This document shows positions 5,207 through 7,818 of a DNA stretch of 64,000 bases, in pieces. Source of the stretch: Simplicispira psychrophila DSM 11588 (GTDB lineage Bacteria > Pseudomonadota > Gammaproteobacteria > Burkholderiales > Burkholderiaceae_C). The position numbers were made by a program, and so were the translations under genes. Each line of letters begins with the position of its first letter. Position 1 is the first letter of the stretch. The notes beneath the pieces are model-generated. The model saw only the letters and a program-made list of their open reading frames with translations, ran no database searches and was not told the origin of the DNA. The stretch covers positions 186,001 through 250,000 of the forward strand of contig NZ_JHYS01000004.1 of assembly GCF_000688255.1 (NCBI RefSeq). The letters run 5' to 3'.

Positions 5207-6634
5207 ATGCTGTACCTCTCCACACGCGGCCACGCCGAGCGCAAACACTTCTGCGACATCTTGCTGGCGGGCCTGGCGCCCGACGGCGGCCTGTACCTGC
5301 CGGTGTCCTACCCGCAGGTGGACGATGCCATGCTGACCCGGCTGCGCAACGTCTACCACCAGCAGGGTTACGCCGAGCTGGCGTTTGAAATCCTCTCGCT
5401 CTACATTGACGACATTCCCGCTGACGACCTGCGCGCGCTGTGCCAAAAAACCTATACCGCCGAAGTGTTTGGCACTGGCGAAATCGTGCCGCTGCGCCAC
5501 CTTGAAAACGGTTTGTGGCTGGAAGCGCTGTCCAACGGCCCCACGCTGGCGTTCAAAGACATGGCGATGCAGCTGCTGGGCAACTTGTTCGAGTACGAAC
5601 TGGCGCGCCGCGGCGAAGAGCTGAACATCTTTGGTGCCACCAGCGGCGATACCGGCAGCGCGGCCGAATACGCCATGCGCGGCAAGCAGGGCGTGCGCGT
5701 CTTCATGACCAGCCCGCATGGCCGCATGAGCGCGTTTCAGCAGGCGCAAATGTTCAGTCTGCAAGACGAGAACATCCACAACATCGCCATTGAAGGCGTG
5801 TTTGACGACTGTCAAGACATCGTCAAAGCGGTTAGCAACGACCACGCGTTCAAGGCGAAATACAAGATTGGCACCGTCAACTCCATCAATTGGGCGCGCC
5901 TCTTGGCGCAGGTGGTTTATTACTTTGCCGGCTACGTGCAGGCGACGGAGCGCAACGACCAAAAAGTCAGCTTCACCGTGCCATCGGGCAACTTTGGCAA
6001 CGTCTGCGCTGGCCACGTGGCGCGCAGCATGGGCTTGCCGATTGACCAATTGGTGGTCGCCACCAACGAAAACGACGTGCTCGATGAGTTCTTTCGCACC
6101 GGCGTGTACCGCGTGCGCGGCAGTGCCGATACGCACGAAACCTCCAGCCCGTCGATGGACATCAGCAAGGCCAGCAACTTTGAGCGCTTTGTGTTTGACC
6201 TGCTGGGCCGTGACGGCGCGCGCGTACAGGCGCTGTTTGGTGAGGCGTTGGCGCGTGACGGTCAATTCGATTTGAGCGCTGACCCTGCCTTTGCCGAAGC
6301 CGCTAAAAAATACGGCTTCGTCAGCGGCAAAAGCACCCACGCCGACCGTTTGGCCACCATCCGCGACACCTTTGAGCGCTTTGGCGTCACCGTGGACACC
6401 CACACCGCCGACGGCGTGAAAGTGGCCCGCGAACACCTGCAAGCCGGTCAGCCGATGCTGGTGCTGGAAACCGCACTGCCGATCAAGTTCGCTGAAACCA
6501 TCGTCGAAGCACTCGGCCACGAGCCTGAGCGCCCGGCCCAATTTGCCGGCATCGAAGCGTTGCCCAAACGCGTGCAGGTGATGGCGTGCGACGTGCAGTT
6601 GGTCAAAGACTACATCGCCCGCCATTGCGATTGA
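5207..6634 (+). CDS. thrC: Threonine synthase
   Basis: A 475-residue PLP enzyme converting O-phosphohomoserine to threonine. The N-terminal MLYLSTRG and the PLP lysine K117 in PTLAFKDMAMQLLG are characteristic, as are the phosphate loop region ATSGDTGSAAEYA and the substrate-binding segment PSGNFGNVCAGHVA. It is the long form used by proteobacteria. It completes the hom-thrC unit; the upstream aspartokinase and aspartate semialdehyde dehydrogenase genes are elsewhere. Confidence 0.96.
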   Translation: MLYLSTRGHAERKHFCDILLAGLAPDGGLYLPVSYPQVDDAMLTRLRNVYHQQGYAELAFEILSLYIDDIPADDLRALCQKTYTAEVFGTGEIVPLRHLENGLWLEALSNGPTLAFKDMAMQLLGNLFEYELARRGEELNIFGATSGDTGSAAEYAMRGKQGVRVFMTSPHGRMSAFQQAQMFSLQDENIHNIAIEGVFDDCQDIVKAVSNDHAFKAKYKIGTVNSINWARLLAQVVYYFAGYVQATERNDQKVSFTVPSGNFGNVCAGHVARSMGLPIDQLVVATNENDVLDEFFRTGVYRVRGSADTHETSSPSMDISKASNFERFVFDLLGRDGARVQALFGEALARDGQFDLSADPAFAEAAKKYGFVSGKSTHADRLATIRDTFERFGVTVDTHTADGVKVAREHLQAGQPMLVLETALPIKFAETIVEALGHEPERPAQFAGIEALPKRVQVMACDVQLVKDYIARHCD

Positions 6635-6759: not shown

Positions 6760-6776
6760 TGTCGGAGTTTTTTACA
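6760..6776 (+). promoter_or_regulatory. Possible activator site upstream of the sigma-54 promoter
   Basis: Imperfect dyad TGTCGG-N5-TTTACA, centred about 120 bp before the predicted start site of the PEP-CTERM gene. That is the usual distance for an enhancer of a sigma-54 activator. Assigning it to a PrsR-type regulator is a guess from known biology of PEP-CTERM genes. Confidence 0.35.
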
Positions 6777-6859
6777 ACTTCTGCTTTGTCAACGCTGCAG
6801 GTTGCCCACGGAAATCAAAATATCTTTTGAAAACAAGAGGTTATTTATAAAAATTTTTC

Positions 6860-6876
6860 TTGGCACGTTTTCTGCT
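6860..6876 (+). promoter_or_regulatory. Sigma-54 (RpoN) promoter of the PEP-CTERM gene
   Basis: TTGGCACGTTTTCTGCT matches the RpoN consensus TTGGCACG-N4-TTGCW except at one core base (plus the degenerate R). GG (-24) and GC (-12) are exactly 12 bases apart. The predicted start near 6887 gives a leader of about 30 bases containing AAGGAG before the ATG at 6918. Confidence 0.8.
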
Positions 6877-6917
6877 AATTGGTTGTCAACTTCGTTTTAT
6901 CACCCAAGGAGCAAAAA

Positions 6918-7718
6918 ATGACTGATTCCAAAAAACTTCTGTTGGGTCTTGCCCTCTCCAGTGCAGCTCTGCTCAGCCTTCCTGCCCAAGGTATGGCGAT
7001 TTCCTATGGCGGCCAGATAGCAGGCGATGGTTCGGGGCTGACAAGCTCTTTCATTCCCGCCAGCAATATTACGCTGCCAGGATCGGGCTATTTCGTGGAA
7101 ACCTTTGACGCTGCTAGCGCAAGTTTGTTAGCAGCGTTGCCGCCCGATGGCGTTTCCATTCAAGCTGGTTGCTCGGTCAACGCCTCTGGGGCACTGAACA
7201 TCACCACGACAGGCGGCGGTTTTGGCGTGCAGAGTGGCAGTACCTCCAGCGCTGCGGCACCTGCCAATGACACCACCTGTTTTGGCTTTGGCCCTCAGCC
7301 TGGAGGCGGGTTGCCGGCGACAGTCAAAGTGGACTACAGCAGCGTTCTGTCGTCAGGTGTCAAGGTGTCCTATCTCGGCTTGTATTACGGCTCCATTGAT
7401 ACGTACAACGATATCCGCATTTACGACGGTGCTACTCTGCTGCGCACCATTACCGGCACCGAAGTACTGGCAGCTTCCAGCGGCATTTCTGGTAACCAGG
7501 TAGCCCCTGGATCGAATGTGTATGTGAATTTCGCCTTCGCCCCGGATGAGGCCTTTACTGCTTTTGAGTTTCACACCACCAGCGTGGCGTTTGAAGTGGA
7601 TAACATCGTGGTCGGTCTGACCAACCGCCGTGATGTACCGGAGCCGGGGTCGCTGGCACTTCTGGGTGCAGGCCTGCTAGGATTTACCGTCATCCGCCGG
7701 CGCCAGCGCAAGGGCTGA
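6918..7718 (+). CDS. PEP-CTERM sorting-domain secreted protein
   Basis: A 266-residue exported protein. The start is fixed by AAGGAG (6906-6911) six bases before the ATG at 6918; an in-frame upstream codon at 6879 lies inside the promoter region. A signal peptide (KKLLLGLALSSAALLSLPAQ) is followed by a Gly/Ser/Thr-rich body of no recognised enzymatic type. The C-terminus is a PEP-CTERM signal: VPEPGS (240-245), a hydrophobic helix and a basic tail RRRQRKG. In known systems this tail is recognised by an exosortase (EpsH/XrtA family) encoded elsewhere, and the proteins go to the surface or extracellular matrix. No exosortase or exopolysaccharide gene is near. Expression is probably RpoN-dependent. 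Confidence 0.88.
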   Translation: MTDSKKLLLGLALSSAALLSLPAQGMAISYGGQIAGDGSGLTSSFIPASNITLPGSGYFVETFDAASASLLAALPPDGVSIQAGCSVNASGALNITTTGGGFGVQSGSTSSAAAPANDTTCFGFGPQPGGGLPATVKVDYSSVLSSGVKVSYLGLYYGSIDTYNDIRIYDGATLLRTITGTEVLAASSGISGNQVAPGSNVYVNFAFAPDEAFTAFEFHTTSVAFEVDNIVVGLTNRRDVPEPGSLALLGAGLLGFTVIRRRQRKG

Positions 7719-7785: not shown

Positions 7786-7818
7786 ATGCCAGTCAGCGCC
7801 TGCTGACTGGCATTTTTT
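7786..7818 (+). terminator. Strong Rho-independent terminator
   Basis: Perfect 12-bp stem ATGCCAGTCAGC/GCTGACTGGCAT with loop GCCT, ending in six T. It isolates the PEP-CTERM gene from the molybdopterin operon. Confidence 0.92.

Follow-up and report, generated by a model that had tools for sequence, protein, structure and literature searches.

A probable enhancer-dependent sigma-54 promoter of the PEP-CTERM regulon in Simplicispira psychrophila and the helical phasing of elements of its kind

Introduction

The closest precedent is the cis-element that Haft et al. (2006; PMC1569441) described for PEP-CTERM genes. In the part of their text available to us, they set out a motif 1, a motif 2 and a PrsK/PrsR/PrsT profile, and give the spacer between the motifs only as a mean of 62.8 with an s.d. 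of 10.6. A second precedent is pepA of Aquincola tertiaricarbonis, for which the accessible portion of the report (PMC9850573) gives a −24/−12 element TGGCAC/CTGCTT, dependence on RpoN1 by RT–PCR, a start mapped by primer extension and a predicted enhancer upstream. A review (PMC7057263), in its available section, states that IHF often helps the DNA to loop at sigma-54 promoters, citing NifA and Pu.

The element analysed here lies in a 64,000-nucleotide stretch of the S. psychrophila DSM 11588 genome (contig NZ_JHYS01000004.1, positions 186,001 to 250,000; hereafter the window) and is a member of the kind predicted in 2006; neither the upstream element nor the link to PrsK/PrsR is new. Like the element in the available text of Haft et al., it combines a 17-nt motif ending in TTTACA with a 17-nt −24/−12 motif, has a spacer inside their 32–92 nt range, and is intergenic before a single PEP-CTERM gene in a genome that encodes PrsK, PrsR and PrsT. 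The present analysis adds phased spacer peaks and IHF enrichment to that account, the accessible text of which contains neither 'periodic' nor 'IHF', and 'helical' in the reference list only. With Aquincola pepA, as far as that report was available, it shares a PEP-CTERM gene with a −24/−12 element, and a PepA-family gene in this genome lies under the same element; however, the window gene is of the Npun_F0296 type and is known here from sequence alone. As at nifH and Pu, enhancer, bend site and −24/−12 element would lie within one stretch, whereas the link between IHF and PrsR consists here of consensus matches.

Neither phasing nor IHF was found for the PEP-CTERM element in the open-access literature searched: PEP-CTERM with sigma54 and IHF returned nothing, PEP-CTERM with helical, promoter and spacer returned Haft et al. 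(2006) alone, and PEP-CTERM with 'integration host factor' returned papers that, by title, concern Geobacter biofilms and fly gut symbionts. To the extent of these searches, phasing and IHF enrichment are undescribed for this element.

A probable two-motif promoter before a PEP-CTERM gene

The features of the region, in window coordinates, are as follows.

6760–6776, + strand: motif 1, probable PrsR enhancer site, TGTCGGAGTTTTTTACA, matching the description of the motif in the available text of Haft et al. (2006)
6777–6860, + strand: spacer of 84 nt, on a peak (mean 84.9) of the phased distribution described below
6831–6843, + strand: IHF-like site AAACAAGAGGTTA, one mismatch from WATCAANNNNTTR, which we take to be the IHF consensus; offset −30 from TGG, weak by itself
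6860–6876, + strand: motif 2, predicted sigma-54 −24/−12 promoter, TTGGCACGTTTTCTGCT; composite score by PWM 41.7 (99% point of the null, 15.2)
6906–6911, + strand: ribosome-binding site AAGGAG, read from the sequence
6918–7718, + strand: gene for a PEP-CTERM protein of 266 aa that has an exosortase-dependent surface protein domain of the Npun_F0296 type
7632–7703, + strand: PEP-CTERM sorting signal, PF07589 match
7786–7813, + strand: terminator-like hairpin with a T tail, intrinsic type, 12 pairs

Both motifs fall in the intergenic interval from the end of the preceding open reading frame, at 6634, to the ATG at 6918. Within motif 2 the GG occupies 6862–6863 and the GC 6874–6875, and 41 nt follow before the ATG, in agreement with an earlier note on this sequence that had placed a −24/−12 site about 42 bp upstream of the start codon. 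The two 17-mers are separated by 83 nt, and motif 1 lies 84 nt from TGG. Placed from the −12 element, the +1 of the gene would be at about 6887, so the centre of motif 1 falls at about −119 and the distance of about 120 bp from the predicted start given for the upstream element in the same note is correct. Its description of that element as a dyad holds for the outer TGT/ACA and fails for the inner CGG/TTT, which are asymmetric, and we rejected a strict dyad.

The strict pattern TTGGCAC-N5-[CT]TGCT, the strict pattern TGTCGG-N5-TTTACA and the composite of both elements each occur once in the 64 kb, counting both strands; from base composition, TGTCGG-N5-TTTACA would be expected by chance 0.004 times per window and 0.2 times per genome. 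The gene downstream exceeds the cut-offs of NF050191 (61.2 bits, cut-off 29), TIGR02595 (29.5 bits, cut-off 16) and PF07589 (31.9 bits, cut-off 20.7), which bears out its earlier assignment to the PEP-CTERM proteins. The terminator-like hairpin at 7786–7813 suggests that it forms a single-gene unit; the region holds five terminator-like sites, against 2.0 in shuffles.

The regulon and its machinery in the genome

Three genes in this genome match PF07589, and both elements lie upstream of all three, with 0, 1 and 1 mismatches in motif 1 and spacers of 84, 84 and 62 nt. A scan before the PEP-CTERM genes other than the one in the window, a test set beforehand, thus found both elements at the remaining two: TGTCGGCCTTTCTTACA with CTGGAATGTTTCTTGCT, 84 nt apart, on C8, and TGTCGGAAAATTTTTCA with CTGGCACGGTTGATGCA, 62 nt apart, on C10. 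With a PWM trained solely on the 124 composites of the genome_contigs loci, the three promoters scored 41.7 (window), 31.4 (C8) and 36.6 (C10), all above the maximum of 17.4 reached by 591 random window stretches (99% point 15.2); taken together, the two elements provide the handle on the rest of the regulon that the earlier note had seen in them. The C10 protein is PepA (NF033554, 152.7 bits, cut-off 80).

The genes prsK, prsR and rpoN, for which that note had proposed a search, are present, together with prsT. PrsK (TIGR02916, 739.7 bits), PrsR (TIGR02915, 709.2 bits) and PrsT (TIGR02917, 688.6 bits) all exceed their cut-offs, and their genes are adjacent, on one strand, on C1 with an EpsB-type glycosyltransferase gene. 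PrsR contains GAFTGA. An exosortase (256.5 bits) is encoded on C1 about 28 kb from prsR, and rpoN is on C12 (408.3 bits, cut-off 277.35).

We put the probability at about 0.93 that the window element belongs to the PEP-CTERM regulon as a sigma-54 promoter that depends on an enhancer. On this reading PrsK would phosphorylate the NtrC-like regulator PrsR, which would bind motif 1 (6760–6776); the DNA between motif 1 and the promoter would loop, probably bent by IHF at a site some two to three helical turns upstream of −24; PrsR, through its AAA+ domain, would open the sigma-54 RNA polymerase complex at 6860–6876; and the PEP-CTERM surface protein gene (6918–7718) would then be transcribed alone. 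The computed basis comprises the elements and their position, their recurrence at three of three PEP-CTERM genes, their tendency to occur in genomes with PrsR, the phased spacers and the excess of IHF consensus matches in them. That PrsR and IHF bind at the window promoter, that its DNA loops, that it depends on RpoN and that a signal induces it, we infer.

Co-occurrence with PrsR and alternative explanations

Among 60 relatives, 13 have PEP-CTERM proteins, and PrsR exceeds its cut-off in 10 of these 13 but in none of the 47 that lack them. Eleven of the 60 have the exact composite at a spacer of 55–85 nt, namely all ten with PrsR and one further genome, G040. Across the order (250 genomes, spacers of 24–116 nt) the composite is present in 56 genomes, 47 of the 58 with PrsR and 9 of the 192 without it (Fisher p = 5e-31), and 11 of the 58 PrsR-positive genomes have no exact composite. 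This distribution supports, at the level of sequence, the earlier note's proposal of control by RpoN with PrsK/PrsR.

A sigma-54 promoter at this position could instead be driven by another enhancer-binding protein (NtrC-, NtrX- or AtoC-like), with PrsR a fellow traveller. At least 23 matches to the PrsR model are found in the genome, nearly all of them other sigma-54 activators, and the nine genomes with the composite but no PrsR above threshold include G040, in which the best match reaches 387.6 bits against a cut-off of 502.6. Such other activators, however, occur in all 60 relatives, whereas the exact composite is confined to the 11 named above, and we consider control by one of them very unlikely. 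Less likely again is that most transcription of the gene at 6918 starts from a housekeeping sigma-70 promoter within the AT-rich stretch 6820–6860: one sigma-70-like site does overlap the spacer there (6827–6854), but it has only 9 of 12 matches, with 0.5 such sites expected by chance in shuffles, and this explanation leaves the conserved composite and its co-occurrence with PrsR unaccounted for.

The bare core TGGCAC-N6-TGC occurs at 144 places in the genome, against 69 for the backward pattern; a bare −24/−12 scan is useless for finding the regulon, and it is the combination with motif 1 that counts. Motif 1 at one mismatch or fewer has 13 sites in the genome (backward control, 7), of which three are the PEP-CTERM promoters. 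None of the other ten is convincing as a regulon member, and the sole one with a good −24/−12 element downstream, C7:57702, lies inside a 398-codon open frame. The only exact TGTCGG-N5-TTTACA in the 3.6-Mb genome is the window copy. When the three spacer ranges are pooled, the composite is found at 149 places in the 250 genomes, against one for the backward pattern, a specificity sufficient to find the regulon across genomes without annotation. A chance −24/−12 match beside an unrelated AT-rich hexamer pair, in favour of which the abundance of the bare core and the ten motif 1 sites away from PEP-CTERM genes could be cited, is the least likely explanation of all and is refuted, as far as sequence allows, by the position of the sole exact motif 1 at the window promoter, by the single, intragenic −24/−12 partner among those ten sites and by the count of 149 against one.

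PEP-CTERM matches in four genomes (G000, G013, G019 and G029) number 25, of which 18 were examined (3/3, 6/7, 3/4 and 6/11, respectively). Fifteen of the 18 genes scored above the 99% null point, G029_2890 among them with a poor motif 2, and three gave no high composite score. One of the three, G013_C40b, does carry an exact composite and was missed because this lies inside the longer open frame used for scoring. The open frame of G013_C9 ends without a PEP motif, so its PEP-CTERM match may be spurious.

Within the genus, PEP-CTERM proteins, PrsR and the composite coincide in the same 3 of 26 genomes (G000, G013 and G019), as if the trio had been acquired or lost together.

Helical phasing of the spacer

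The 149 places in the 250 genomes (104, 28 and 17 from the three spacer ranges) have spacers that fall into clusters with means of 51.8 (n = 16), 62.8 (65), 73.9 (24), 84.9 (22), 96.6 (17) and 106.7 (3), apart from one place at 30 and one at 42; the window spacer of 84 nt sits on the 84.9 peak. A fit to the clusters gave 11.14 nt per step. The Rayleigh R was 0.742 at a period of 11.22, against a null maximum of 0.293 in 1,000 draws of uniform spacing, and 0.719 when one place per genus and spacer was retained; at exactly 10.5 it was 0.636, and bootstrapping over genera gave a period of 10.98–11.5. The spacing between enhancer and promoter is thus helically phased, at about 11.1 bp per turn, which suggests that motif 1 stays on one face of the DNA. 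Enhancers that act from one face of the helix are familiar from NtrC.

Support for the phasing from other classes rests on the alpha- and gamma-titled subsets of the loci, of which 19 of 20 and 20 of 20, respectively, lie within 2.5 nt of the predicted peaks, with 42% expected; at least one genome is common to the loci and the 250 genomes, since the composites of L155 and G202 are identical. Second, relaxed copies of motif 1 upstream of the 197 composites described below amount to 33 and are weakly phased (R 0.44 at 11.0). The natural spacers yield a rule that predicts an inactive promoter when the enhancer is shifted by half a turn and an active one when the shift is a whole turn.

The composites of G040, a genome 96% complete with 67 PEP-CTERM matches and the subthreshold PrsR match given above, are in phase, and its congeners G090 and G175 carry PrsR.

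IHF-like sites in the spacers

The spacers of both other PEP-CTERM promoters in this genome contain exact matches to the IHF consensus, TAAACCATTGATT at −42 on C8 and TAATGCATTGATT at −31 on C10. In a sample of 197 unique composites (124 + 29 + 24 + 20), which overlaps the 149 places used for phasing, 35 spacers have an exact match in one or the other orientation and 162 have none, whereas 100 dinucleotide shuffles gave 1.8 on average and never more than 5; with one mismatch allowed, the count is 106 against 30 in shuffles (maximum 40). Exact matches number 2.98 per kb in the spacers. The flanks, which are less AT-rich, have 0.11 per kb (the 60 nt before motif 1) and 0.08 per kb (the 80 nt after −12). 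The patterns that define a composite fix TGTC, TTTACA, TGGCA and TGC, so the letter frequencies at those positions are as they are by construction.

In one orientation the exact sites lie at −31 to −33 (15) and −42 to −44 (6), and in the other at −18 to −20 (7), −29 to −31 (5), −35 (1) and −47 (1); they are stepped by about 11, as the spacers are. The IHF-like site of the window, at −30, shares its orientation with the exact sites at −29 to −31 and −18 to −20. These matches suggest that IHF probably bends the DNA between motif 1 and the promoter. If so, genes for the floc and biofilm matrix would respond to IHF levels and in that way to growth phase.

Composites before other genes

By a simple pattern, 127 of the 197 composites precede a PEP-CTERM-like open reading frame. 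In another 22 the locus ends too soon, and the remaining 48 include several PEP-CTERM variants that the pattern misses. In ten Sphingomonadales-type loci (L162, L172, L178, L179, L180, L197, L226, L231, L239 and L240, of which L239 is named only Pseudomonadota), no obvious open reading frame follows the composite, the spacer of which is 64 or 65 nt long. All but L231, the hairpin of which differs, have a leader of about 30–40 nt and then a GC-rich hairpin, with stems that are typically GAGGCGGG/CCCGCCTC, their letters changed yet paired, and a loop around CTGGTCTCC.

Folding each hairpin recovered the long stem in seven of these nine (L162, L172, L178, L180, L226, L239 and L240), with L179 and L197 giving another hairpin; z-scores ran from −2.3 to −4.2 against mononucleotide shuffles. 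A MAFFT alignment of the nine hairpin regions was poor in the stems. No Rfam family scored above its gathering score in the hairpin region of the ten loci; Pseudomonas P11, the only family to appear at one locus scanned under a lax threshold, was rejected (E 0.54; 14.5 bits, where the gathering score is 70). The convergent gene reads as a Grx4-type glutaredoxin in seven of the ten loci, and both of the seven that were checked exceeded the cut-off of TIGR00365 (NCBIfam). The hairpin is a candidate sRNA.

Uncharacterised proteins with Tat-like N-termini are encoded directly under a composite in different bacteria (L129:5570–6193, − strand; L254:1711–2403, + strand; L286:1717–2151, + strand). Those of L129 and L254 form one family of 208–231 aa with 32% identity and RRRFT near the N-terminus, for which no NCBIfam or Pfam match was found; the N-terminus of the L286 protein resembles theirs.

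A wider proposal joins two parts: a tripartite, rigidly phased enhancer, in which PrsR site, IHF bend and promoter would keep a fixed register, so that natural spacers report an in-cell helical repeat of about 11.1 bp per turn, and a regulon that would extend beyond PEP-CTERM proteins to a structured trans-acting RNA in Sphingomonadales and a Tat-exported family. For the two parts jointly we see the odds as even. The phased tripartite enhancer, as read from the composites, is strongly supported; the extension beyond PEP-CTERM is suggested by promoter matches with a conserved hairpin or open reading frame after them. The targets other than PEP-CTERM genes may include unknown components of the exosortase and matrix system.

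Short or distant open reading frames follow composites at a few further loci. In two Thiobacillus loci (L130:3005–3247, + strand; L200:2080–2316, + strand) a membrane-protein-like frame of 79–81 aa lies under the composite, and the frame after it is presumably argJ. Two genomes of the same genus (L256:1709–1924, + strand, and L269) have a conserved, cysteine-containing frame of 72 aa under a composite whose spacer is 98, and in L154 and L209 a composite with a spacer of 75 stands about 280 nt before a frame for an ABC transporter ATPase.
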